Below, piece after piece: positions 3,889 to 19,799 of a DNA stretch of 24,210 bases; the first letter of the stretch is position 1, and each line of letters starts with the position of its first letter. The notes under the pieces are model-generated. The model saw only the letters and a program-made list of their open reading frames with translations, made no database searches and was not told where the DNA came from. The stretch lies in IMG/VR virus record IMGVR_UViG_3300032241_001626, positions 1 to 24,210 of that record, one strand, 5' to 3'. The translations under genes and the position numbers were made by a program. Origin of the DNA: a virus.

Positions 3889-4269
3889 ATGGCAAGGGAT
3901 TTATACGCCGACTACACAGTTGACTTCAAAAATCTGATCGACTCCCCAAACAGGGTTCGCCGAGGCATCAAGCGTGGCGTGAACGAGGTCATGCAGGAGG
4001 TATTCGACGAAAGCCAAGAACTTGTCCCCGTGGACACCGGATCGCTCAAAGACTCCGGCATCTTCATTTCAGCGCAGGACAAGGGCAACGGGGTAGAAGC
4101 CTCGATCTCCTATGGCAACGCACTTGTGACCTACGCAATAGATGTTCACGAGGACTTGCAAGTATTTCACGAGCCACCCACGCAAGCGAAATACCTCGAA
4201 ATCCCTATGACCAACCATCAACCCGAACTGCTAAAGGCCATTCGGCACAGGATCGGTGAAAACCTATGA
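3889..4269 (+). CDS. HK97 gp10-like neck/tail-completion protein
   Basis: 126 residues; ATG preceded by GGTGGTGAAAT. The diagnostic core of the HK97 gp10 family is plain: ELVPVDTGSLKDSG at residues about 44-57, followed by SISYGNALVTYAIDVHE and then P..AKYLEIPM. These proteins sit at the head-tail interface or help tail completion in siphophages and are almost always encoded between the head-closure gene and the tail terminator, as here. The last codons overlap the next gene (ATGA at 4266). Confidence 0.82.
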   Translation: MARDLYADYTVDFKNLIDSPNRVRRGIKRGVNEVMQEVFDESQELVPVDTGSLKDSGIFISAQDKGNGVEASISYGNALVTYAIDVHEDLQVFHEPPTQAKYLEIPMTNHQPELLKAIRHRIGENL

Positions 4270-4697
4270 CTACTCTCCTCGATGCCATCGGCTACTACCT
4301 GCCGATCCAAACCGCCAACCTTCCGGCGGAACAACAACTTGTCCTCGGTGAAAACTTGTTCCTCGGTCGCTTCCCGGCTGAGGCTCCCAACGCCGCCGTG
4401 CTCGTGCAGTTATACATGGGTAAGGCTCCGAACTTCACAATGGGGAGTGGTGCGATCGCTTTAGACAACCCCAAAATCCAAATCCTCGTCCGTGGGGAGC
4501 GTGAGGACTACCCCGGCGCATACGACCTCTCCATCGTCATCAGGAACATCTTGGGGAGCATCGTCGGTTCGACGGTTATCGACGGCGTGACCATCATGCG
4601 CCTCGAACCACTCGGCACCCCGAACTACACGGGCTACGACGAGGTGGATCGTCCAAAGTTCACGCAGAACTTCCAAGCGATGTTGCCCGGTTCATGA
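4266..4697 (+). CDS. Tail terminator protein
   Basis: 143 residues, start overlapping the previous stop by four bases. The pattern is that of siphophage tail terminator / 'minor capsid' proteins: an N-terminal helix (TTLLDAIGYYL), a beta strand ending in LFLGRFPAEAPNAAVLVQLYMG, PKIQILVRGEREDYPGAYDLSIVIRNIL split across a strand and a long helix, and a C-terminal PLGTPNYTGYDEVDRPKFTQNF. In the family these form a hexameric ring that stops tube polymerisation and joins the tail to the head. Gene order supports this. The 3' end overlaps the next small gene by four bases. Confidence 0.75.
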   Translation: MTTLLDAIGYYLPIQTANLPAEQQLVLGENLFLGRFPAEAPNAAVLVQLYMGKAPNFTMGSGAIALDNPKIQILVRGEREDYPGAYDLSIVIRNILGSIVGSTVIDGVTIMRLEPLGTPNYTGYDEVDRPKFTQNFQAMLPGS

Positions 4698-5394: not shown

Positions 5395-5610
5395 ATGGCT
5401 AAGGCAACACCCACATACCAAGTCACCGACAAGTCACCCGTATCCTACAGCGGGAAGGTGGCTCAGCCCGGCGATCTCGTTTCCGACTTGCCCGGTGAGA
5501 GCATCACTTGGCTTCTCGCAGACGGCTTCATCGTCCCCGCCGCCGATCCTGCGCCCGCCGATGACCCCGCTCCCGATGCTGAGCCAGCACCGAGCGACGA
5601 GGCAGCGTAA
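5395..5610 (+). CDS. Small acidic protein preceding the major tail proteins
   Basis: 71 residues; ATG eight bases after GGGGAG. Residues 1-45 form a compact domain with the pattern VSYSGKVAQPGDLVSDLPGESITWLLADGFI, a motif seen in many phage genes near capsid or tail-tube genes (annotated variously as head-fibre or hypothetical). Residues about 49-71 are an Asp/Pro/Ala tail with repeated PAPxDxP units, probably disordered. Its stop is directly followed by the ATG of the first major tail protein, so the two are probably co-translated. The biochemical role is unknown. Confidence 0.72.
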   Translation: MAKATPTYQVTDKSPVSYSGKVAQPGDLVSDLPGESITWLLADGFIVPAADPAPADDPAPDAEPAPSDEAA

Positions 5611-6588
5611 ATGTCCACTCCGATCTTCCTGCACGGTAAGAACACCCGTGTCTTGTTGGCTTGCCCTTCGAGCGCATACGGCACCTTCTCTGCGGTGACC
5701 ACCAACGGCAGCCCGAGCATCACCGTTCTCTACACGGGCTTTGCCCTCGCTCCCGGCATGGAAGTTTCCGGTGCAGGCATCCCTGCCAACACCTACATCG
5801 TGTCGGTCTATGTGAACACGGTTCTGCTGTCGGCAAGTGCTACAGCGACATCGACCCTCAACGCACCCACCGTCGTCACCGTGCCTGTGAGCAACGGAGT
5901 GTCGTATGACCTGTCGCAGTTCCTCAACGACGTTGGCATCTCCCGCATGACGGAGCCAACCGAGACGACCACTTTCCAAACCGGACAGTCGAAGTCCTAC
6001 ATCGCCGGTATTCGAGACGGCTCGATCACCGCATCAGGCTTCTACGACGGCGGCGCATCAGGCGTGGACGCTGTGCTGAACAACGTCATCTACACGGCAG
6101 GCGATAAGGCTGTGCTTGCCTTCCCCGACGGTGGGCAGACGGGCAGCCCCTCGGTTTGCTACATGGCGAACGCCATCGCAACCAAGTACGATCTGAAGTC
6201 GCCAGTCAGCGGTGTCGTCGCTATGGACACCGAGTTCCAAAGCGACCGTGGCGTGTGGCGTGGGCGTGGGGAATACCTGAAGATCACCACCTCGGGCACG
6301 ACGAACACTTACGATTTCTCGACCTCGACGGCAAAGGGGGGCTTACTCGTTCTCGGCATCGCCGCCGTGACCGGTGCACCCACCTCAGTCACCCTCTCTT
6401 TCCAGCACTCCCAAGATGGAGCAACGTGGGTCAGCCCCACCGGAGGAACCCTCGCCACCGAAACCGGACTTGGGGCGACCGTCGCCCTGCTCACCGGAAC
6501 GGTGTACGAATACACACGCTTGTCTTACACCATCTCTGGTGGAAGCAGCCCGACAGCGACAGCCTTCTACGGCTTCGCCCGCTACTAA
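5611..6588 (+). CDS. Major tail (tube) protein 1, long form with extra C-terminal domain
   Basis: 325 residues, ATG adjacent to the preceding stop. Residues about 1-20 (FLHGKN) and 98-219 form the tube-protein core: FLNDVGISR, EPTETTTF, KSYIAGIRDGSITASGFYD, then KYDLKSPVSGVVAMDTEFQ. This core aligns with the next gene. Residues about 32-84 are an inserted beta module with GMEVSGAGIPANTYIVSV. Residues about 224-325 form an added beta-sandwich domain (LSFQHSQDGATWVSPTGG, VYEYTRLSYTISGG), like the Ig-like decorations carried on many phage tube proteins. Such domains project from the tail surface. It may be the main tube subunit, a minor variant, or a decorating subunit mixed with the shorter paralogue. 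Confidence 0.8.
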   Translation: MSTPIFLHGKNTRVLLACPSSAYGTFSAVTTNGSPSITVLYTGFALAPGMEVSGAGIPANTYIVSVYVNTVLLSASATATSTLNAPTVVTVPVSNGVSYDLSQFLNDVGISRMTEPTETTTFQTGQSKSYIAGIRDGSITASGFYDGGASGVDAVLNNVIYTAGDKAVLAFPDGGQTGSPSVCYMANAIATKYDLKSPVSGVVAMDTEFQSDRGVWRGRGEYLKITTSGTTNTYDFSTSTAKGGLLVLGIAAVTGAPTSVTLSFQHSQDGATWVSPTGGTLATETGLGATVALLTGTVYEYTRLSYTISGGSSPTATAFYGFARY

Positions 6589-6600
6589 AGGAGCAGCCAC

Positions 6601-7302
6601 ATGGCAACCCCAGTGTTCAACCACGGTAAGAACGCATTTCTCGCCCTCGGGTGGGCTTCACCGGCCTACTCGGCATATCCCGGCGTGACCGGCCTCATCA
6701 ACTCCGGTGCAACGGGCGTGACGATCTCGGGTGGGTCTATCCCTACTGAAATCTCCGGCGAAGCCCCCATCGTCAACGGTGGCTCCATCTACGGTGCCTT
6801 CGTCGGCGGCGTGCCGGTTTACGCCTCGACCGCACCAACCGGTGCGTCAGGAACCACCTTCCCGATCACCAACGCTGGTGCGACCGGCGTGAGTGGTCCC
6901 ATCGTGCAGATGCGGAACATTTCACCGTGGATCAACGACATTGGCTTCCCGACCGCCATCGAGCCGCAGGAAACCACGACCTTCAGTGCCGCCGGTGTGA
7001 AGTCCTACATCGTAGGTCTGAAGGGCTACAGCCTGACCTTCTCCGGTATGTTCGATGAGACTGCCGCCGGTATCGACCAGATGATGTATGAGATGGAAGC
7101 CTTCCAAAACACGGCTGGTCAGTTCGTCCAGTTCGTCTATGGCCCCGCAACGCCGGGTGCGTTCGCTGGCGTGGCTGCCGATATCAAGTATTACGGACAG
7201 GGCGTTCTCTCCAAGTATGAACTGAAGTCTGCGGTTGCCGGTGTCGTGACCTTCGACAGCGAACTCCAAGTGACGGGGCCGGTTTACCGGACTACACTGT
7301 AG
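6601..7302 (+). CDS. Major tail (tube) protein 2, paralogue of the preceding gene
   Basis: 233 residues; AGGAG seven bases before ATG is one of the strongest ribosome binding sites in the window, suiting an abundant protein. The N-terminal FNHGKN and residues 104-230 (WINDIGF, EPQETTTF, KSYIVGLKGYSLTFSGMFD, KYELKSAVAGVVTFDSELQ) match the first tube protein motif by motif. Between them lies a different Gly/Thr-rich insertion (about residues 22-95), and there is no C-terminal extension. The protein ends shortly after the common core. Being closest to the chaperone gene and lacking decorations, this copy is a good candidate for the main tube subunit; that choice is inference. Confidence 0.82.
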   Translation: MATPVFNHGKNAFLALGWASPAYSAYPGVTGLINSGATGVTISGGSIPTEISGEAPIVNGGSIYGAFVGGVPVYASTAPTGASGTTFPITNAGATGVSGPIVQMRNISPWINDIGFPTAIEPQETTTFSAAGVKSYIVGLKGYSLTFSGMFDETAAGIDQMMYEMEAFQNTAGQFVQFVYGPATPGAFAGVAADIKYYGQGVLSKYELKSAVAGVVTFDSELQVTGPVYRTTL

Positions 7303-7325: not shown

Positions 7326-7679
7326 ATGTCCAGCCTTTCCGATCAGATTTTTGCCGTAGACGACATTGAGTCCGAACTCCTCGAAGTCAAGGTTTGGGGC
7401 GTGACCGTCTTGGTGAAATCCATGACCGCTAAGGACCGTGCCCGCATGATCGGCAACTCGACGACGGTGACCGGTCAGTTCAACTTGGAGCAGGTGCTTC
7501 CCGACCTCGTGATCCACTGCACCTACGACCCGGAGACGGGCGAGCGGGTGTTTTTGGAAAGCGACCGTGAGGCACTCATGGCGAAGTCTGCATCAGCCAT
7601 CGAGGAAATCGCATCGGTGGCTCTGCGGCTTTCAGGGATGGGAGACGACTCTGCGGACGAAGCGGGAAAAGACTCCTAG
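7326..7679 (+). CDS. Tail assembly chaperone, short (gpG-like) product
   Basis: 117 residues; AAGGAG five bases before ATG. It is an acidic protein with VKVWGVTVLVKSMTAKDRARMIG near the N-terminus and PDLVIHCTYDPETGERVF in the middle, the usual layout of siphophage chaperone N-terminal domains (a mixed domain with DLV and YDPETGE). It ends AGKDS at a TAG just after a slippery heptamer. The short form is made when ribosomes do not shift and, as in lambda gpG, should predominate over the long form. It lies between tube and tape measure genes, the invariant location for this pair. Confidence 0.85.
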   Translation: MSSLSDQIFAVDDIESELLEVKVWGVTVLVKSMTAKDRARMIGNSTTVTGQFNLEQVLPDLVIHCTYDPETGERVFLESDREALMAKSASAIEEIASVALRLSGMGDDSADEAGKDS

Positions 7680-7874: not shown

Positions 7875-10800
7875 ATGACGTTTATGTCCGATGCGGGTGC
7901 GAATAGTGCCGATAACAGCCTCCGTATCGCCATTCTCGGTGACCCCGACAACTACATCAAGGCACTGGACAAGGTTCAGAAGGCCACGCTAGAAACTGGC
8001 GACAAGATCAAGGACAGTTTTAGCGAAGTCGGTAGTTTCCTGATGAAAACCATCGGATACATCGGGTTCGCCACAGCACTCGAAGGTGCGGTGGAGTCGG
8101 CATCTACCCTCGTGTCCTACCAAAAGGTGCAGGGTCAGGTTCTCCAAAACCAACTCAACCCCGCCTTGCTGAAACAGTTGCAGATGCAGAAGCAGTCCTA
8201 CACCAATGGTGTAGCGATTTCTAATGTGCTCACCGACTACACCACGCAGCAGTCCATTTCCACCGGTATTTCACGAGATCAGTTGACCCAAACTGAAACC
8301 TTGTTGCTGACCAACCGTGAAATCACGAAAGAGATGACGGCGCAGGGAGCAAACATGGTGAAGAACGGCTCGATGTTCAGCCTCGCCGTCACCGATGCTG
8401 AAAACATGAGTGCAGTCACACACCAAGGCATCTTGTCGTCGGCAAAGATGCTGAACCGTGTGCTGAATGACCCCGCTAAGCGCATTTCAGCAATGTCTCG
8501 TGGTGCAGTGCAGTTGAGCCTTGCCCAGCAGAACTACATCAAGCAGATCGAAGCAGCGCAAGGTAAGCAAGCCGCCCGTATGGCGTTGCTCAACACCGTG
8601 AACCAGCAGTTGCAGGGTGCGGCTGAGTCGGCAATGTCGCCGATGGAACGCCTGCAAAACGACTTTCAAATCCTGTATCAGCAGTTGGGTTTGATTTTCC
8701 TGCCGCTTCTCGACGCTTTGGCGACCACGCTTTCTAGCGTCTTGAATCCGATTTCTCAGGTCTTGACCTACATTGGCAAGGCGTTCAGTGACGTAATGGA
8801 AGGGATCGGTCAGAACCTCGGGCAAATCTTTGGTCTTATGACCCCGTGGTTCAAGTTGCTGACCCAGACCATCATCCCCGCCATTTTTACCATCATCGAG
8901 CCGTTGGTGAACCTAGCCACAAACGTTCTCACCCCGCTTTCTAACGATTTCCAAAACATCGTCAACGGCTCACCGGGCTGGCTCAACCTTTCCACCATCA
9001 TCGCCAATATCGCTAAGGTCATGTCGGGTGACCTCATGACGGGTGTGAACCAAGTTGCCGCCATGTTCAACCAAATGCAGCAAAACGGCACTCTGCAACA
9101 ACTGTTCAATAGCCTTGCTCAGTCGCTCGAAATCATGGCTCCGATCCTGCCAGCATTGGTTCAGGCGTTTGTGGACATGGCGGTCGCCCTCCTACCCATT
9201 GGGGTCAAGGCACTTCCCTATGTGGCTGACCTGCTAAAAATCTTTGCCGACATGGCTACCTTCATCGCAAAGTTGATCCCGCCTGTCGCCAACTTTGTCT
9301 CAAAACTCATGAAAATCGGTGCCGTCAAGGACTTGCTCATTGTCCTTGCGACCTTCTGGTTCACGAAGCGTCTGTTCATGACCCCCATGATGAGTGTTCT
9401 CGGTGGTCTTGGGAAGATTGGGAGCAGGATCGGTGGACTTATTGGAACCATGAAGCAGTATGGCTCCACCGTCAAGGACTTTGGCACAATCAGCAAGACC
9501 GCTGAAGGTGCTGAAATGAGCCGTGCCGCCCGCATGAAGAAGGCTTTGGAGGACGAGGCACGAACCGGCAAGGCGTGGCGGCTCAACCGCATCGAGGAAC
9601 TGAAGGCCAAGGGTCCAAAGGGCGTAGAAAAGGCTGAAAAACTAGAGAAGGACTTGTCGAAGGCGGAACGCCGCTTCGCCAAATACGAACGCCGCTACAA
9701 CGAAGCGGAGCGCAAGGGTGGCGGTATCCGAGGGCTGTTGAAGTCGGTTTTCAGTATCGGCATGGGAAACCTCCCCGGCGAAGAAGAGCCGAAGCCCAAA
9801 GATCAGTTTCAGGCAACCATCGACAACACCAACGCTCTGATCCAACTCACCAACCAACTTGCAAGCGGCGGCGGTCTGTTCGGGAACAGTGGTGGTGGTG
9901 GTGGAAACAACTTAGAACAAAAGTTGGAAAATAAACTGAAGTCCAAGTTAGAGGGCAAGGTGAAATCTGAGTTAGAAGGCAAGGTCAAGTCTGAACTCGA
10001 AGATAAGTTGGAAGGCAAACTCGAAGGCAAGTTGGCTGGAAAACTCGAAGGCAATGTCGGAAAGCGTCTTGCTGGCAGGTTGCTCGAACGCTACGGAGGC
10101 CGTGCGGGTCAGATGATCTCCAAGTTCGCCGGTTTGGGCGAGGAGGGTGCTGGTCTTGCTGAGGGTGCTGGTGAAACGGCACTGGTTGGTGGTGGCGAGG
10201 CCGCCGCTGAGGGCGGCATTTTGGCTGCCGGAGCGGCAAGTGGAGCCGCCACGCTCGGTATTGGACTTGCCGTTGCAGGTGCCACTGTGGCCTATATGAA
10301 GTATCACAAGGCCATCAACAAGTGGATCAAGGGGACCGCAAAGCATCTCTACCATGCCGCCCAAGATGTAGTGAAATGGGGGCAGAAAGAGGGTCAGCAC
10401 CTTGTCAACGGCGTAAAGGACGTTGCTAAGTTTGCTGGTCGTGTTGGACACGCTGCGATGGGTGTCGTCACCGGAGGCATTCACGCAGCCGGGACGATCC
10501 TGCATGGCGTTGGCTCAGCCATCGGCGGCTTCTTTGGCGGACTGTTCGGTGGAGGCGGTGGTGGTGGAAAGTCAAGTGGTGGTGGTGGCGGCGGACAAAC
10601 CTACTGGCTCATTAGGATCGCTCATCACACCTACGACTCAGCGAACTACCTCCGCTACATGAGTGGGAACCACGCCATCACCAACCTCATGCGCCACCCC
10701 ATCATGAAAAAGATGGAGAGCGAGCGTAAGAACTACGACGGTCGCTATTGGTTCATCAAGATCGCTGGAAACACGAAGGACACCAAGGAGGCGTTGCGGG

Positions 10801-10973
10801 CGATGAACCGCAGCGGACACCAAGGCGCCATCACCATCGAGAAGGGCGCTTTCGTCATCACCGTCAACGGCGCAGTCCACCCTGACGAGCACGCAAAGGT
10901 CGTCCAAAAGGTCGTCAACGACAACATGAAGGAGTTGCAGCGGGTTCTTCGGACGCTGGGACGTGGCATCTAA
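7875..10973 (+). CDS. Tape measure protein
   Basis: 1032 residues, start at ATG 7875 after GGTGTGAAAT (another ATG three codons on is possible). It sets tail length and is ejected into the cell; at the usual 0.15 nm per residue the tail would be about 155 nm. Hydrophobic segments occur near residues 486-520 and 782-812. Residues about 560-620 are charged coiled coil. Residues 680-739 are 15 tandem four-residue units with Leu or Val at each first position. Gly-rich linkers lie at about 660-677 and 888-907. The C-terminal part has two copies of a YW-hydrophobic-I-K/R-IA motif (residues 910 and 958) and ends in VQKVVNDNMKELQRVLRTLG, as in many tape measures. No peptidase or lytic domain motif was recognised. 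Confidence 0.92.
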   Translation: MTFMSDAGANSADNSLRIAILGDPDNYIKALDKVQKATLETGDKIKDSFSEVGSFLMKTIGYIGFATALEGAVESASTLVSYQKVQGQVLQNQLNPALLKQLQMQKQSYTNGVAISNVLTDYTTQQSISTGISRDQLTQTETLLLTNREITKEMTAQGANMVKNGSMFSLAVTDAENMSAVTHQGILSSAKMLNRVLNDPAKRISAMSRGAVQLSLAQQNYIKQIEAAQGKQAARMALLNTVNQQLQGAAESAMSPMERLQNDFQILYQQLGLIFLPLLDALATTLSSVLNPISQVLTYIGKAFSDVMEGIGQNLGQIFGLMTPWFKLLTQTIIPAIFTIIEPLVNLATNVLTPLSNDFQNIVNGSPGWLNLSTIIANIAKVMSGDLMTGVNQVAAMFNQMQQNGTLQQLFNSLAQSLEIMAPILPALVQAFVDMAVALLPIGVKALPYVADLLKIFADMATFIAKLIPPVANFVSKLMKIGAVKDLLIVLATFWFTKRLFMTPMMSVLGGLGKIGSRIGGLIGTMKQYGSTVKDFGTISKTAEGAEMSRAARMKKALEDEARTGKAWRLNRIEELKAKGPKGVEKAEKLEKDLSKAERRFAKYERRYNEAERKGGGIRGLLKSVFSIGMGNLPGEEEPKPKDQFQATIDNTNALIQLTNQLASGGGLFGNSGGGGGNNLEQKLENKLKSKLEGKVKSELEGKVKSELEDKLEGKLEGKLAGKLEGNVGKRLAGRLLERYGGRAGQMISKFAGLGEEGAGLAEGAGETALVGGGEAAAEGGILAAGAASGAATLGIGLAVAGATVAYMKYHKAINKWIKGTAKHLYHAAQDVVKWGQKEGQHLVNGVKDVAKFAGRVGHAAMGVVTGGIHAAGTILHGVGSAIGGFFGGLFGGGGGGGKSSGGGGGGQTYWLIRIAHHTYDSANYLRYMSGNHAITNLMRHPIMKKMESERKNYDGRYWFIKIAGNTKDTKEALRAMNRSGHQGAITIEKGAFVITVNGAVHPDEHAKVVQKVVNDNMKELQRVLRTLGRGI

Positions 10974-11042: not shown

Positions 11043-14000
11043 ATGAGGAACTACATCGCAAATCCGAACTACTCCGATGTGACCGACTCGCCCTATTGGA
11101 GCGTGATCGGGACAACTACGCCCGATGCAGCCCTCGCTGACGTTACCCAACTCTCTATAGGGCTTGTCCCCGATGACGGGGTGAACTACAAGGCCGCCCA
11201 TGTCGAGGACTTGTCCAAACTCCTGCTCGGTTCCACCTCCCTGTCGGTGGCTTCTTGGGGGCAGCGAGGCGGGTCGTCATCTGGGCCGCTTGGAAACACC
11301 GTGGGTGCTATAGGAACCAACAGCGGTGATCCGTTCATCTACGTCAACGACATTACACAGGTGCAGCCGGGAAACACCGTTGCCCTTTTGGAAGGCACGA
11401 CGGGCAGCCATCCGATCTCGTGGACACCTGCCGTTTCCACCGATGATTTCATGAGCGAATGGCTGAAAGCCCGAAATGTTGGGCTTGTCCCTGTGGTCTC
11501 GTCCATGTCTTGCAATACGACGGCTGCCACCTTCCTGCCAAGTAGCGGCACGAGCCTCACTGCTTCCCTGAAGCCGCTCTACAACTTGGACGACTACGAC
11601 AACAACAGGGGACAAACTGGCCCTGAGTATGCTCCTACGCCGGATAATGTCGGAGCAACCAAAACTGCTGGAACGCAAATCCCATCGTTCTACATCACCA
11701 CCTCTGGCGACACGCAGGCTCAGGCAAATGTGCAAACCGGTCTTGGCTTGTCGGATTGGAACCCGAACGGCTACAACGTCGTTTCCGTCGCAGTTAGCAC
11801 CGCAGCGGCCACCATCGTCATCTCTGGCTCCACAACTTTCACGAACGCCGCAGGGGTAGTCAAGGGGATGACCGGCGGGCAAATGGTGACCCTCGCCATT
11901 GAGTCGACGAACATGGGTTGGAACGCTGGAACCATTACCGGCGTGACCGGCTCCGGCTCGACTTGGACGATCACCACCGATTTGACTACATTCACCACCG
12001 GTGCTGGCTCAACTGGCTTGGGTGCAGTCCCCTATTATTGGACGCTTCCGGCTACCGCTATGTCGTCCACTTCAGCCGTTCCCACGACAGTTTCCGTCAC
12101 GGCTACCGGTTCGACTGGATCAAATCTGATTTCAGTTTCCAGCAGCACCGCCAACCTCGACGTCGGGCAGATGGTCACCTTTGCAAGTGGCGTAAGCCCC
12201 TTGATCTGCGAAATCATCGGCATATCGGGAAGCAAATACATCATCAGTGGAACGGCATCGGGGACGGGGACGATCACCGGGACTGCCCAAAACGTTGTGG
12301 CTTTTACAGCCACCGTTGAGGAAAACGACGCTGTGACGGGGCAGCCAGACCTCGTGCTGAAAAATGGCGTGAACATCTTTGGTTGCGAGCCGTTGATGGC
12401 ACCCTACTATGCCACCACCTATACGGATATTTACCTAGACGGTCAGCATGGTGCCCCCGTAGGATCGCACTACGGACAAGACCTCTACTTCCCCGTTCAG
12501 TTCTCGAACTACTACAGCACCCCAGTCGCCAACTTCCAAAGCATGACTGCTCTCCCGAAAAACGCTATTCCGGGGTGGGTTCCCTCTCTCGCAAACGGAA
12601 GCACTCTGGCGGCAACAGGAAGCACCGCATTTGCAGCACCCACCCCCTATGTGGTGTATGCGGATAGCGTGGCAAACATCTACCCCGGTCAAAAGTTGAC
12701 GTTCCGTAGCGATTTCACACCGAATACCAATGTGACGAACATCATCATCGGCAACGGAAGCGGGACGGCCAATATCAACGCTTGGAACACAGGCGATATC
12801 GCCACCTCGGATGTTGCGTATTACCAAGTTTTGCCCGGACAGCAACTTCTCGGGTTGGGCGGGGTTATCGGCAGTAGCGTGCAGACTGTCGCTGTCGGCT
12901 CCTCTAGCAGTTTCACAATCTACCCCAACTCAACGCAAGACCACGCCACAAATGCTGCTCCCGTCCGTTTGACGACCCGTGATAAATACCTTTACTCGTG
13001 GCAGGTTTACTCCGTAAATACGGCGAACAACTCGTTCATCATCTACAACAGCAGCCAGTCATACACCCACCAGCCCGGATCTTATCCAAACGGCGACTCC
13101 CAAAACGCCATCTACCAATACGACCCTCTGGTGACGAGCGGTGCAGTCTTTGACCTCGTGATTTCGGACACAACCGGAGCGGGTGTCGTCGGACTGACCT
13201 CAAATGTGGTTGGCAACCACGCCACCGGAACTTTCGTCGCTGCCTACGAGGAAGGTCCTCGCTACCTCGGAACTTCGGCTACCGGAGATTTGGAAGCGAT
13301 CACGCCGTCATTCATCGGAACTCGTGTTGGCTCCGTCCTCGATCAGAACGCACCGGCGGGTTCCACCTACATCATCGTTTCACCAAACCCCACGACTGCT
13401 ACGGGAACCTTTGGAGCGTGGAACTACAACGCCTACGGAAACTCTGGCAACGGCGGCTTCGTGCCTCTGGCGAACAATGGGACGACCTACACCTTCACCG
13501 GAAACTGCTACGACGGTTCCACCTCGATCACGGGCATCACGCCCACCACCGGACTTGCGGTTGGGCAGGAAATCGCTGTAGCAAGTTCGCAGGGTTCATT
13601 CCCATCGGGAACTGAAATCACGGCTATCTCGAAGAACACGCTGACCGTTTCACAAGCGTTTGTCGGACCGACGGGCGGCATCAGCGACATTCCAAACAAC
13701 ACCTTGACCGCCACCGCAAACTCTCTCTACACCATTGTTGTCGGGGAGGGAAGCGATCAAGAACTCGTCACACTCGTCCCTCCATCGAACAGCATCAGCA
13801 CCTCCCTTGGACAGCCGCAGGATGGCAGCGCAAACATCAACCAACCGATGATTTGGTATCTGGCAAATGGCTTGTCGCTCCAAAACGACCACACGGTAGG
13901 TGAAATCGTCACCACTCCGAACTTCACCTACTCCGCCGGTGGCTCAACGACTTCGCACGCTCAATACACCCCTGTTCTCGGCTCCCCAGACTTGGGCACG

Positions 14001-17000
14001 ATCTACACGGTGAGCGGTGGCACGGACTATGTGCAGACGAACGCTCTGGTCGCTAGCAACAACTCAAACCAAATCGCCATCAACGCTGAGGTTTTTTTGG
14101 AGTTGGACGACCCGTGGGAGGTTTCTGGCCTCGGCGGTGACCCGAACATCTCCACCGCTTTGACCTCACCTTCGGTTGCGGGGGACACCCAAATCACCAT
14201 TGGAGACAACGGCGGCTTCCCGACCACGCTTCCAAATGTCCTCAACGCCTCGTTCTCTTACCAGCCTCCTACCTTAGGGCTGCTCAACGGTGCGGCGGCG
14301 GCGGGTGCGACGTATTTCACCATCAACCTGACGAGCGAGGTTCCCGCTTCCTTCCCGTTCACCGTGGCGATGGGGACGGGTAGCGCAACCGTCGGCACCA
14401 TGTCTCTTATTGCAACCGGTTCCACCGGAGGGACATTCATCGCCCAACTGCAAAGCACGACGATCAACGGCTTTGTCCTCACGAGCGGCAATAGCGTTGC
14501 CACGGTTGGTAGCACGGCAGGGATTTCAACGGGGCAGGTCGTCACCGGAAATGGTATCCCAAGCGGCACGACGGTTGCCTCTATCGGAGCAGGCTCGGTC
14601 ACCTTCAGCGCAACGGCTTCATTGACCGCTCAGGTTGCTCTGACCTTCACGAATACCCTCGGCGCAAGCCACCCGGACATGACCCCGGTGATCCTGAGCA
14701 CCCTTCCGGCAAATGTGGGCTACCACAAGGTCGAGGTTCCATCGTTCTACCTTTGGAAATCCGATGGCAGCGATGCTGGTTTCCACCTGACTAACCCTTC
14801 GACCAACTACACCTCGATCAACACCACACCGCTTCCCTGCGCTATTCCAGCGAACTCTACGCTATATCTGCGCTACGGGGCATATGTGGACTCGTTCTAC
14901 ACCGCAACCGGAGCGGCGGCAGGGGCTACAGGGTTCGCCATTCAGGCTTCATCGGGTTCTACGGCGGGCTACGCCCCTTCCTCGAACTTCCCCACCTCTA
15001 TTGGTAGCAGCGGCTCCCTGACCACCGTAGGGGCTGTGGTGACCGTTGGTTTGACCTCTGATTTGGAACCGGAGCAGGAAATCTTCCTCACTGACGGCAC
15101 AAATGTCGTCCCGATCACTGTTTCGTCTTACACGCCGAGCATTTCAGCAAGTATCCCAACACTCCAATACTCCACAACAGTCGATATTGCCGCCGGTTCG
15201 ACCTTCATCGCCCCTCCGAACTTCGCCATCGACAGCGGTGCGGATTTGGAAACGGTCTATCCCCTCACTGTGCCTGCTGCGGCTGGAAACAACTGGTCGG
15301 TGCAACTTGCCGCCGGACTGACCTACAACCACAATGTCGGTGCTCCGGTTTCCTACTACGAATGGCCGTCGAACATCCAAACCGGCATGGTGACCTACCG
15401 CCCTGACTACGGCGAGTTTGTGATGTGGGACGGTGAGCGTTGGCGACAGGCTCGTGTGAACTATGTCCAAACCGTTCTGGCGATCCTCGGTGCGGTCGGC
15501 GGACGTGACCAGACCAACATTTCACTCTACGATGCCTCTACGGGCGTTGCTTCTACGCCGGACACTTTCGCCAACACTCTTTCCACCGCCTTCACGGTTT
15601 ACTACGGCGGTGCGAGGAACAATGATCCAAACGGCGACGAATGGACGGGCGACACCCTCAGCGCAATCCAGTTGCAACTGAAGGTGCAGGTTCCCCAAAG
15701 CCGACAAATCGCTTTCCGCAGCCTCGGCCTAAATGTCCAATACAAGAGCCAGCCCGTCGTCCGCCAAGTAAGCCTTACGCCCACAGACAACCTGCGCCTT
15801 GACCAGAACCAGCACACCTCGGTTTCTTGGCTCTACACCGACCTCGACAATGACCAGCAAGCCGGTTGGGATGTGAAAATCTTTGCCGACACCACTGTCG
15901 TCCGTGATGACTTCGATCCGACCACCTCTACGCCGTTTTGGAGTGCATCAGGAACAGATACAAGCAGTGAGGTTGCGCTCGACGCTTCGCATGGTTACAC
16001 CAGCGGTATGCGCTACTGGGCGTATGTCCGAGTTGCTAAAAAGTTCCGTGGCAGCCTTTGGTATAGCGACTGGCAGTTCACCCCGTTCGTTCCAAATGTG
16101 AAGCAGCCGCAGCCGCCGCTCGTCATGGTCTATGGCGACAACAACAACGCTGTGAACACCGTCACGATCCAATCCACCGACAACCTTCTGGCTCCCGATA
16201 ACGGGGCGTTCACGAACTCGCTTGGAACATGGACGGCAACCCACAACGACTTCATCGCTGGAATGTTGAGTAGCATCGCTACGACTTCTAAGGTAGACGA
16301 AACACTTGGCGTAGTGACTTCCATCCCCGTCGGTGCGGTCGGCTACCTCAAAACGCAGGGTGCGCTTTCGGGCACGGGCACTGGAACCTTCGTTGTGTCT
16401 GGCAATACCGGTGGAAGCGCTGATGCCCTTGGCTTCCCGATCACCGGACGGTTCTGGGTCACCATTGGGACTGAGCAAATCCTCGTCACAAACAAGGTGG
16501 ACGGCAAGAACTCCGGCGACACTTTCCAAATCGTCACCCGTGGCTACAACGGAACCACCCCGACTTCTCACCTCGCCGGTTCCACTGTGACTTTTGGTTT
16601 GCAGCAGCCGGTTTACACCGGTAGCAACCTCGAACTGTCTTACACGGAGAAAATCGTCAAAGACTGGACGACGACTAATACCAGCGTTCGATGGGTCGGA
16701 GGCTCGGCGGGTGTGACCCGAACCTCCACCACCGCCTCTTTCGACATTGTTGGGCACGATAACGGTGAAAAGAACACCGCCATCATCATTGACTCTCCCG
16801 GCATCACCCGTGACGGTTGGGACGGGCAGCAAGTCACCATTCAGTATCCCAACCCTCTGAACACCACGGAAGCAGCGGTATTCGGTCTTTACAGTAAGAA
16901 CCCAACCATCACACAAACAGCGATTATCCGTAGTGTAACGCAGATCATGGGCGCAACTCCACCTCCGGTGGGTATTGCCATGACGATTTTGAGTGACTTC

Positions 17001-19799
17001 ATCACCAAGGGTTCCTACACTGTTCGGGCGCAGGTTCCAAACGGGAGCATCAACGGTGTTCCCGTTTGCCATAATGGGACGATAACCACCAAGACCGTCA
17101 TGCTCAACGCAGGCGAGCGTGTGTATATAGAAATGCCTGCGGCAAGGGCGTGGACAAAAAAGGGCTTCATCACGCAACCAGCAATGACCGCAAGTGGCAT
17201 CATCACGCAGCCCTTCTACTTCGGCAGCACGACAATCCACATGACGGTTCTCTTGCCGTCGGCAAGCGGCATCTTGCCTGCTCTGAGCCGCATCATCTAC
17301 GACTACCCAGAAAAGCCAACTGCTGAAAAGAAGGTTGTCTTTGACCGCACTATTGGAATGGGTGCTCCGATCAGCGGCGGGAAAATCCTGTTCAGCGTAA
17401 CGCAGACCTTTGGGGCGGTTTCAGCAACCAAGGTTGTGACCAACACGCCGGTCAAGCACTCCACGGTGTCCTATGTTCCTCATGCTCAGACCTGCGTGGT
17501 GGACTACTACACCCAACCCATCACTGCCACCGGAACGGCAGGAGTTTGGAACGGATCAACCTTCGCCACCCTCTCTGCCACGCTGAGCGGCCTCTCCTTC
17601 ACCGGGAACATCACCTCCGGCAGTTCGGGGGTCACGGGCGTTTCGAGCACGGCGGGTCTTGCCGTTGGACAGCAGATTTTCGGGTTCGGCGTTCTGCCCA
17701 ACACCTACATCTCGGCAGTTGGAACCGGCACGATTTCACTGTCCACCACCGCCACGACCTCTGCTACGGCGAACATCATGGCTTCCAACCCCACCTTCAA
17801 CGCCTTCCAGTTCGCCTCGATCCCCGGAAGCGTTGCCGTCGGCAGCACCATCGTCGCTCCGGGGCTTCCAAATGGTTCTGTGGTGGCTGGCATCACGGGC
17901 ACAGTCGTCACCTTCACGAGCAACATCACCGACGGCTACAGCCAAGGAGCCGGATCGGTCAGTTTCAGCGACATTGACCAAACCACCGGTGTTCCAAAGA
18001 ACCCGTTGATTACCCAAACGGTGAGTTTCATCACCTCGTCACAGACGGTTATTCCAGCAGGTTCGACCACTGTTCCTGTCTGTGGGTTCAAGCCGAGCGG
18101 GACATTCCCCGCCTACAGCGCAGTTCGCATCAACTACCCCGCTCTGTATGGCGATTATGCGATGGCGGTCATCGCAACCACCGGTGGAACGGCTGCTTAT
18201 GCTGAGGTCACCACTCACACGGCAGGACAGTTGCTAAGCGATATCCAAAAGGGTGTGTTCAACCCTGCGGCGGTCCCGGTCAAGGCAGGACAAACCTATG
18301 CCCTCTCGGCGTGGACGCAGGTGATCTCCTCCACTGCGGTTCCCACCTTTGCCCTGTATGTGGACTGGTATGCCTCGAACGGCACGTTGCTTTCCACCTC
18401 AGATGGAACGGCGTTCCTGACGAAAAACGGCAACACGACCACTTCCTCGGTGCAACCTTCCGTCAACGCAGTTGGCAGTAGCCACGGACAGGGTTGGAGG
18501 CCGAACGCCATTGTCGCTGTTGCCCCGGCAAACGCCTACTATGCCATTCCTCGTATCAGGTGGAATAACGTCACTACGGGTGGCGTATATGGCCTCTCCG
18601 GCATCATGTTCAAGGCGGTGGCAAGTCAAGCCCTCGACCTCAACGGAGCGGCGCAGACGAGCAACATCGGCGGCTCGACCTCGCTTCCTGTCCTCGGCTC
18701 AACGGTTGACCCAACCAACGGAACCGTTGCCTCTGCGATCAACATTCCGACCACCACTCCGGTCAGCGGCTACAACACCCTGTTCGTCTTTGACCCCGCC
18801 AACGACAACAACTCTCGTGAAATGGTCCAAGGCGGCTCGGACTCCTTCATCAAGACCAACCTGACGGCAACTGCAAATGCCGGTGATACCACGATTACCG
18901 TTGGCAAGACCCTTGGTATGGGCGTTGGAGCATTGCTCTACCTGAACATTGGTGGATCGCTCTACGAAACTGTGACCATTGACCCGGCGTGGGACGGCAG
19001 CATGACCGTCACGATTTCAGCACCCCTCACCTACACGCATGGCGTAAACACCTCGGTTAGTGGCTATGCCGCAGGGCTTTCGACTGGGGTGTCTAAGGTG
19101 CAGCCAAAGGGCGGCCTCGTCGCTGCGCTCAACTGGTCATACGACGGGTATGTGAACCAAACCATCGACACCTACGCCTACAACGTCCAAAAGTCGGTTG
19201 ATGGCGGAATATCTTGGTACACGCTCCGCAACGGCGACTATGTGGTTGCAACGGGAACGGGATTTGCTTCGATCACCGACTACGAGGCAGTCCCCGGACA
19301 GGCGACGCTCTACCGTGCGCTCCCATCAGTGCTGAAAAACGGCGGCAAGACGGCAGTTGCCGGTCCGGTTTCAGCAGGTTCGTCACCCACAACTCCGATG
19401 ACTAGCCAGACATGGTGGATCGCCGACAGTTCCAACCCGACCCGTCGCTACCCGATCAACGTGCAGAACGGCTACACCGAGACGCAAAAGCACCCCTCTG
19501 GCGTGTTCTACCCGCTCGGTTCCAGCCGCCCGTATGTCGTCTCTGGTGTCGTGCAGGGTCGAGATGGCGATATCAAGGTGATTTGGACTGACCTCGCCAA
19601 CTGGGACAACTTCCTGAACCTGCTCAACTCAGGGAACGTCCTCATTCTGACCAATCCGGTTGAGTCCACACGCTCCTACATCTTCATCAACCAAGATGTG
19701 CAATACACCCATAACGCCGCCGCAAGCCCCTATCGTGAGGTGGAAATCCAATACGTCGAAGCCGCACCTCCGGGCTTTGGCTATTCCTACGGGAGTTAG
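11043..19799 (+). CDS. Giant modular minor tail protein (2918 aa)
   Basis: The ATG follows GTAGGGGTTGCGCC, 69 bases after the tape measure stop. The protein is almost wholly beta-rich, Gly/Ser/Thr-rich, with no obvious membrane segment. Recognisable parts: several 'VGQ...G.GIP..T.I..I' modules (residues about 358-403, 820-874, 1149-1204, 2189-2246, weaker 2250-2309); a conserved centre near 1448 (YRPDYGEFVMWDGERW); Fn3-like segment about 1571-1683 ending YWAYVRVAK and WYSDWQF; a phage TRGYNGTTPTSHLAGSTV module about 1780-1855; a carbohydrate-binding-like jelly roll about 2412-2530 (VKAGQTYALSAW, APANAYYAIPRIRW); another Fn3-like stretch about 2686-2785; and a C-terminal domain from 2790 (RRYPINVQ, WTDLANWDNFLNLL) seen in actinophage minor tail proteins. 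It probably builds the tail tip and its side fibres and binds host glycans; that role is inferred. Confidence 0.85.
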   Translation: MRNYIANPNYSDVTDSPYWSVIGTTTPDAALADVTQLSIGLVPDDGVNYKAAHVEDLSKLLLGSTSLSVASWGQRGGSSSGPLGNTVGAIGTNSGDPFIYVNDITQVQPGNTVALLEGTTGSHPISWTPAVSTDDFMSEWLKARNVGLVPVVSSMSCNTTAATFLPSSGTSLTASLKPLYNLDDYDNNRGQTGPEYAPTPDNVGATKTAGTQIPSFYITTSGDTQAQANVQTGLGLSDWNPNGYNVVSVAVSTAAATIVISGSTTFTNAAGVVKGMTGGQMVTLAIESTNMGWNAGTITGVTGSGSTWTITTDLTTFTTGAGSTGLGAVPYYWTLPATAMSSTSAVPTTVSVTATGSTGSNLISVSSSTANLDVGQMVTFASGVSPLICEIIGISGSKYIISGTASGTGTITGTAQNVVAFTATVEENDAVTGQPDLVLKNGVNIFGCEPLMAPYYATTYTDIYLDGQHGAPVGSHYGQDLYFPVQFSNYYSTPVANFQSMTALPKNAIPGWVPSLANGSTLAATGSTAFAAPTPYVVYADSVANIYPGQKLTFRSDFTPNTNVTNIIIGNGSGTANINAWNTGDIATSDVAYYQVLPGQQLLGLGGVIGSSVQTVAVGSSSSFTIYPNSTQDHATNAAPVRLTTRDKYLYSWQVYSVNTANNSFIIYNSSQSYTHQPGSYPNGDSQNAIYQYDPLVTSGAVFDLVISDTTGAGVVGLTSNVVGNHATGTFVAAYEEGPRYLGTSATGDLEAITPSFIGTRVGSVLDQNAPAGSTYIIVSPNPTTATGTFGAWNYNAYGNSGNGGFVPLANNGTTYTFTGNCYDGSTSITGITPTTGLAVGQEIAVASSQGSFPSGTEITAISKNTLTVSQAFVGPTGGISDIPNNTLTATANSLYTIVVGEGSDQELVTLVPPSNSISTSLGQPQDGSANINQPMIWYLANGLSLQNDHTVGEIVTTPNFTYSAGGSTTSHAQYTPVLGSPDLGTIYTVSGGTDYVQTNALVASNNSNQIAINAEVFLELDDPWEVSGLGGDPNISTALTSPSVAGDTQITIGDNGGFPTTLPNVLNASFSYQPPTLGLLNGAAAAGATYFTINLTSEVPASFPFTVAMGTGSATVGTMSLIATGSTGGTFIAQLQSTTINGFVLTSGNSVATVGSTAGISTGQVVTGNGIPSGTTVASIGAGSVTFSATASLTAQVALTFTNTLGASHPDMTPVILSTLPANVGYHKVEVPSFYLWKSDGSDAGFHLTNPSTNYTSINTTPLPCAIPANSTLYLRYGAYVDSFYTATGAAAGATGFAIQASSGSTAGYAPSSNFPTSIGSSGSLTTVGAVVTVGLTSDLEPEQEIFLTDGTNVVPITVSSYTPSISASIPTLQYSTTVDIAAGSTFIAPPNFAIDSGADLETVYPLTVPAAAGNNWSVQLAAGLTYNHNVGAPVSYYEWPSNIQTGMVTYRPDYGEFVMWDGERWRQARVNYVQTVLAILGAVGGRDQTNISLYDASTGVASTPDTFANTLSTAFTVYYGGARNNDPNGDEWTGDTLSAIQLQLKVQVPQSRQIAFRSLGLNVQYKSQPVVRQVSLTPTDNLRLDQNQHTSVSWLYTDLDNDQQAGWDVKIFADTTVVRDDFDPTTSTPFWSASGTDTSSEVALDASHGYTSGMRYWAYVRVAKKFRGSLWYSDWQFTPFVPNVKQPQPPLVMVYGDNNNAVNTVTIQSTDNLLAPDNGAFTNSLGTWTATHNDFIAGMLSSIATTSKVDETLGVVTSIPVGAVGYLKTQGALSGTGTGTFVVSGNTGGSADALGFPITGRFWVTIGTEQILVTNKVDGKNSGDTFQIVTRGYNGTTPTSHLAGSTVTFGLQQPVYTGSNLELSYTEKIVKDWTTTNTSVRWVGGSAGVTRTSTTASFDIVGHDNGEKNTAIIIDSPGITRDGWDGQQVTIQYPNPLNTTEAAVFGLYSKNPTITQTAIIRSVTQIMGATPPPVGIAMTILSDFITKGSYTVRAQVPNGSINGVPVCHNGTITTKTVMLNAGERVYIEMPAARAWTKKGFITQPAMTASGIITQPFYFGSTTIHMTVLLPSASGILPALSRIIYDYPEKPTAEKKVVFDRTIGMGAPISGGKILFSVTQTFGAVSATKVVTNTPVKHSTVSYVPHAQTCVVDYYTQPITATGTAGVWNGSTFATLSATLSGLSFTGNITSGSSGVTGVSSTAGLAVGQQIFGFGVLPNTYISAVGTGTISLSTTATTSATANIMASNPTFNAFQFASIPGSVAVGSTIVAPGLPNGSVVAGITGTVVTFTSNITDGYSQGAGSVSFSDIDQTTGVPKNPLITQTVSFITSSQTVIPAGSTTVPVCGFKPSGTFPAYSAVRINYPALYGDYAMAVIATTGGTAAYAEVTTHTAGQLLSDIQKGVFNPAAVPVKAGQTYALSAWTQVISSTAVPTFALYVDWYASNGTLLSTSDGTAFLTKNGNTTTSSVQPSVNAVGSSHGQGWRPNAIVAVAPANAYYAIPRIRWNNVTTGGVYGLSGIMFKAVASQALDLNGAAQTSNIGGSTSLPVLGSTVDPTNGTVASAINIPTTTPVSGYNTLFVFDPANDNNSREMVQGGSDSFIKTNLTATANAGDTTITVGKTLGMGVGALLYLNIGGSLYETVTIDPAWDGSMTVTISAPLTYTHGVNTSVSGYAAGLSTGVSKVQPKGGLVAALNWSYDGYVNQTIDTYAYNVQKSVDGGISWYTLRNGDYVVATGTGFASITDYEAVPGQATLYRALPSVLKNGGKTAVAGPVSAGSSPTTPMTSQTWWIADSSNPTRRYPINVQNGYTETQKHPSGVFYPLGSSRPYVVSGVVQGRDGDIKVIWTDLANWDNFLNLLNSGNVLILTNPVESTRSYIFINQDVQYTHNAAASPYREVEIQYVEAAPPGFGYSYGS

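Follow-up and report, generated by a model that had tools for sequence, protein, structure and literature searches.

Tandem tail tube paralogues in environmental phages: one plain and conserved, the other decorated and variable

The tail operon of IMG/VR virus IMGVR_UViG_3300032241_001626 (24,210 bases, analysed whole and referred to here as the window) contains two adjacent genes that encode homologous major tail (tube) proteins. Gene A (5611..6588, plus strand; 325 aa, ATG start) is a tail tube paralogue with an exchangeable insert and a C-terminal jellyroll; gene B (6601..7302, plus strand; 233 aa, ATG start) follows after 12 nt and lacks the C-terminal domain. The pair is kept in every relative with enough sequence, which argues for a function and against a chance event of recent date, and it probably represents a useful division of labour. 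The model we favour, to which we give about an even chance of being correct, is that the two derive from an old duplication and share one tail, in which B is the constant main subunit of the tube and A is a paralogue that bears display modules.

Homology between the two proteins was clear from their sequences. A local BLOSUM62 alignment, spanning nearly all of B at ~31-33% identity, scored 257, compared with a mean of 47 (sd 8, maximum 85) for 500 shuffles. Both proteins match two PHROG families annotated as 'major tail protein', 9522 (E 4e-34 for A and 2e-12 for B) and 10528 (E 3e-16 and 1e-13, respectively), and B also matches PHROG 1407. The Pfam family Phage_tail_2 was matched below its curated cutoff only, and a search of the PDB with the tube cores found no sequence relatives at E up to 1. 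An earlier note on this DNA had proposed two paralogous major tail proteins in tandem with common core motifs; its coordinates proved exact, and all six motifs are present in identical order, as HGKN, NDVGI, EPTETTTF, KSYIAGI, KYDLKSPVSGVV and DTEFQ in A, and as HGKN, NDIGF, EPQETTTF, KSYIVGL, KYELKSAVAGVV and DSELQ in B.

The surrounding genes, all on the plus strand, are arranged in the order of a siphophage tail operon. A tail terminator (4266..4697; PF12691, E 3e-8, above cutoff; phrog_2595) is followed by a small head-tail connector-like gene (5395..5610, 71 aa; phrog_2322, E 3.5e-5), the stop codon of which abuts the start codon of A. Directly 3' of B lies a G-type tail assembly chaperone gene (7326..7679; phrog_344, E 4e-18), which has a canonical -1 slippery heptamer, G_GGA_AAA, at its end (7664-7670); reading on in the -1 frame to 7855 would give a G-T fusion of 176 aa. 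The tape measure gene (7875..10973, 1032 aa; phrog_305, E 1e-5) comes next. Thus, both A and B occupy the position of a tube gene, between the tail terminator and the chaperone and tape measure genes. Further downstream, an ORF encoding 2918 aa (11043-19799), about a third of the record, was without a PHROG or Pfam match.

Structure prediction of both proteins, a check named in the earlier note, recovered the siphophage tube-protein core fold in each. The AF2 models (pLDDT 88 for A, 80 for B) contain a core beta-sandwich with a helix and a long beta2-beta3 loop, and run in the order beta1, insert, beta2, long low-confidence E-P-x-E-T-T-T-F loop, beta3, helix and remaining strands, which is the strand and helix order of published tube proteins (PMC8718954, PMC9022992). 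Compared with solved tail tubes, the A model gave VIA Z scores of 10-12.7 over about residues 1-222. The B model matched the tube proteins of monocin, 80alpha/SaPI1, lambda and GTA at Z 8-8.9, near the level that VIA calls middling, in a match list made up mostly of tube proteins. In published work on tube proteins, polymerisation and ring stacking are assigned to two elements, an N-terminal arm and the long beta2-beta3 loop (reviewed in PMC8718954). This inter-ring loop lies at 5953..6012 in A, with EPTETTTF, and at 6949..7029 in B, with EPQETTTF, both on the plus strand, and is conserved between the two. It is the lowest-confidence part of the A model besides the N-terminal arm (pLDDT 70 at residues 111-120 and 56 at 121-130), and in B pLDDT falls below 50 at residues 119-129 and 132-141. 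The two families have the same residue at 21 core positions with conservation of 80% or more in each family, and 12 of these fall in the arm or the loop. Since these are the parts in which A and B are most alike, both proteins look able to polymerise.

A tube-like fold could also serve in an adaptor, with A confined to a single hexamer or a small number of them at the neck or the tip. Afp and PVC provide a precedent, since two functionally distinct tube homologues occur in one particle and the second joins the tube to the baseplate. By analogy with that second tube protein of extracellular contractile injection systems or with Dit, A might act as such a ring, and PVC and AFP chains were indeed among the structural matches of both A and B. 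Moreover, distal tail proteins, like A, combine a beta-sandwich with a tube-like domain, and the top whole-length Foldseek matches of A include the Dit-type proteins of the monocin tip, SPP1 and the 80alpha baseplate (E 1e-5 to 7e-5), which speaks for such a role. However, whole-length superpositions on Dit-type proteins gave rmsd values of 13-16 A, so the domain arrangement is unmatched, whereas the best superpositions of A were on tube proteins (Z 12-12.7); A also sits at the tube-gene position, upstream of the chaperone and tape measure genes. On balance, we consider an adaptor ring unlikely.

The most obvious difference between the two proteins is the C-terminal domain of A (residues 214-325; 6250..6585, plus strand). 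The earlier note had described an Ig-like domain of about 100 residues confined to the first gene. The confinement and approximate length (~110 residues) held up, but the fold assignment did not: what A carries there is a jellyroll like that of the BPP-1 cement protein. A ten-member profile of the domain matched PDB entry 3j4u_H, the BPP-1 cementing protein, at E 5.1e-7 over 61 of 112 positions, a match also obtained with a whole-A profile. Superposition of the A model on the same protein gave a VIA Z of 10.0 and an rmsd of 2.4 A over 101 residues with 20% identity, the best row for this domain, so that similarity extends over most of its length. In Pfam, the domain matched DUF6385, F5_F8_type_C and Bbp16, the last in one of the ten members (E 1.2e-4), with none of the Ig superfamily entries Big_1, Big_2, I-set or FN3. 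On these grounds a lambda/T5-type Ig-like domain was ruled out, the lack of Ig rows in the VIA fold list being no proof by itself. Every one of the 47 aligned A proteins has the domain, at 105-142 residues, while B proteins end at the core; among the matches listed for a search of the loci with its profile, all were A proteins. In two loci the A paralogue is much longer (599 aa in L080:3998-5797 and 718 aa in L077:153-2309), the jellyroll being split by 230-340 extra residues that contain internal repeats and matched no Pfam family above cutoff. Inspection of the translations by eye suggests two repeats in L080 and three in L077, so that copy number seems to differ.

A and B also carry inserts at the same site, the beta1-beta2 loop: residues 19-96 in A (5665..5898, plus strand), which form a small beta module, and residues 19-104 in B (6655..6912, plus strand). 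The earlier note had claimed that the modules after the N-terminus differ, and hhalign bore this out, giving a probability of 0.1% between the two inserts; descent from a single ancestral module accordingly has no support. In the insert-bearing clade, the B insert was found in 25 of 25 proteins at 74-103 residues, and other B proteins have only 7 residues there. The A insert is far less constant. A module of ~74-86 residues occurs in 14 relatives, is missing from seven members of the same clade (4 residues at the site), and gives way to a longer, different insert in the remainder; it is absent (4 or 0 residues) in L020, L022, L040, L056, L061 and L016, among others, and is replaced by other modules in L063 and L065. 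In addition, the module recurs in the 2918-aa tail protein of the window, at residues 2185-2244 (17595-17774; E 5e-10) and at 14475-14630 (E 4e-6), with weak similarity elsewhere in that protein. The A insert is therefore exchangeable, being absent, swapped or common to the phage's giant tail protein, and by its sequence relationships we class it as a mobile tail module. Neither gene has an insert in L016 or in the Arthrobacter pairs. The existence of such pairs means that the inserts are most likely later additions that joined an already existing pair, and the idea that the genes were 'diversified by insertions' is only part of the story.

A search of related genomes, the other check named beforehand, found the pair in every relative with enough sequence. 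Profile scans of IMG/VR returned 186 stretches related to A and 326 related to B, from which 80 loci were kept for each; 175 sequences were compared, comprising IMG/VR contigs, some of them overlapping pieces of one contig, and a few isolates. Exactly two matches, with A upstream of B, were found in 166 of the 175, and the other nine are explained by contig ends or by an A protein (718 aa) above the 600-residue size filter. In every contig extending far enough, A and then B precede the tail assembly chaperone gene, with a spacing that is nearly always ~25 bases or less. Isolates with the pair are the Arthrobacter cluster AL-type phages, Microbacterium phage ValentiniPuff and Microcystis phage Mae-JY09. 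Roseobacter phage CRP-406 and Pelagibacter phage HTVC112P have a single short B-like tube protein without the C-terminal domain, and contigs retrieved with the CRP-406 protein contained one match wherever there was any. Such single-copy relatives mostly score slightly higher with the B profile than with the A profile. A scan of bacterial genome contigs with the B profile gave no confirmed relatives.

This strict conservation bears on whether only one of the two proteins might be built in at a time, as alternative tubes, or whether one might be a non-structural helper, such as an assembly decoy or redundant copy. None of the sampled phages has lost or disrupted either gene, and the polymerisation elements of both are constrained; had one been a decoy or a spare copy, its loss from some lineages would be expected. 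We therefore regard this explanation as very improbable.

A tree was built from 133 core columns and rooted on the single-copy proteins. It placed 51 of 52 A proteins in one clade (support 95/98), the exception being the very divergent A of Mae-JY09, and a tree holding all A proteins together was not rejected (p 0.23), leaving independent duplications in each lineage unsupported. A single B clade was likewise not rejected (p 0.21), so that A inside B and A beside B both fit; with a short alignment and some long branches, the order of the deepest splits is uncertain. A recent duplication is ruled out by the low identity between A and B and by the grouping of each across phages. The tree is thus compatible with one old duplication of the tail-tube gene.

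Since that duplication the two copies have diverged at different rates. Among 50 distinct pairs remaining after removal of redundancy, any two phages of the insert-bearing clade resembled each other more in the B core than in the A core (276 of 276 comparisons), as did 315 of 325 phage pairs outside it: A evolves faster than B. Given that the stacking elements are common to both, B looks like a constant backbone and A like a variable surface, although the faster change of A may merely reflect surface exposure, as in a major decorated tube protein such as that of lambda or T5. The roles could be reversed, with A the main tube subunit and B forming a few special rings or acting as filler where the tube must be bare. 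Such an assignment would agree with A being the first gene and the one annotated as major tail protein in most isolate records, and with the frequency of C-terminal beta-sandwich domains on tube proteins (PMC9022992), lambda gpV and T5 pb6 among them. It sits less well with the stronger conservation of B and with the single-copy outgroup, which is B-like in length and lacks the C-terminal domain, and we hold it to be rather less than likely, if more credible than the adaptor ring. Ribosome-binding-site (Shine-Dalgarno) strength was set aside as a weak proxy for abundance: it was slightly stronger in B on average (32/49, p 0.036), but an earlier, less clean count gave no difference.

Of the ideas in the earlier note, a tube protein with a surface-presenting paralogue fits best, in that A changes faster, swaps its inserts and, in some phages, holds 230-340 extra residues in its jellyroll. 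In our favoured model, with B as the constant subunit and A as the display subunit, a tail-tube gene would have duplicated long ago to give A and B. B, the conserved copy, would make up the greater part of the non-contractile tail tube; A would be a second tube subunit that kept the ring and stacking core, added the cement-type C-terminal jellyroll and, in the insert-bearing clade, also gained the exchangeable beta1-beta2 loop module. A would join B in one tail, interspersed along the shaft or forming rings of its own, where its jellyroll and loop module are expected on the outer surface and might serve in host-surface contact or tube stiffening. On this model, which is inference in these points, virions would contain both proteins, B in the larger amount, and A would act in surface display.

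Several known systems resemble the pair in part. The closest are its own sequence relatives in Arthrobacter cluster AL (Laroye gp64/gp65, both named 'major tail protein' in RefSeq; Kovu 61/62; Ottawa 39/40), ValentiniPuff (64/65) and Mae-JY09, with the same order and place before the chaperone or tape measure gene; they differ in having no beta1-beta2 insert in either gene and a B of ~137-144 aa. In Gordonia cluster DJ, genes 22 and 24 of FortCran encode related major tail proteins, 43% identical and present in all 56 members, of which the product of gene 22 is extended by 51 residues at its C-terminus; the authors leave the function of the two open and suggest that one copy was acquired horizontally (PMC12859696). 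As described there, these proteins are like A and B in being two related major tail proteins with the first extended, but a gene lies between the copies. Two paralogous major tail proteins, again with function left open, are reported for Microbacterium cluster EL (Damascus; PMC11080557), and we found three in Camille of the same cluster (gp17, gp19 and gp20; L218 2907-6405), 42-48% identical and, like A and B, with differing C-terminal ends. A five-protein profile search gave no clear relation of the Camille proteins to A or B (best E 0.02), so that cluster EL is apparently an independent case. Thus, this kind of paralogy was already known, and A/B is a variant of it.

Decorated tubes also arise in other ways. 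In SPP1, plain gp17.1 and C-terminally decorated gp17.1* occur in one tail at 3:1, by translational frameshift (PMC8718954). A and B, known here from their genes, likewise combine a plain and a decorated tube subunit, but they are separate full genes with their own starts, not products of one frameshifted gene, and the decoration is a jellyroll instead of an FN3 domain. Lambda gpV, T5 pb6 and YSD1_22 resemble A in joining a tube core to a C-terminal beta-sandwich outside the tube (PMC8718954, PMC9022992), but each is a single gene, with Ig-like (Big_1/Big_2) domains. The BPP-1 cement protein (Bbp16), which A's C-terminal domain resembles by profile and fold, is a free-standing capsid protein with no tail tube part; in A, then, a domain of the capsid-cement type is reused in a tail protein. 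A pair of separate genes that combines a cement-type jellyroll with exchangeable modules in a loop was not discussed in any paper found in the literature searched.

Annotators have flagged paralogous major tail proteins and left their function open. The pair described here is a single old arrangement, strictly maintained across many environmental phages, in which the plain member is conserved and the decorated one varies, and its cultured representatives (Laroye, Kovu and Ottawa) allow stoichiometry and placement to be measured directly. More tentatively, and with less confidence than in the favoured model itself, we suggest a two-component tail, in which a constant tube subunit is accompanied by a dedicated, fast-evolving display subunit bearing a cement jellyroll and modules common to the large tail protein. 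If this is true, the whole tail shaft, beyond the tip, would be an evolvable host-contact surface, long kept in phages of unrelated hosts.
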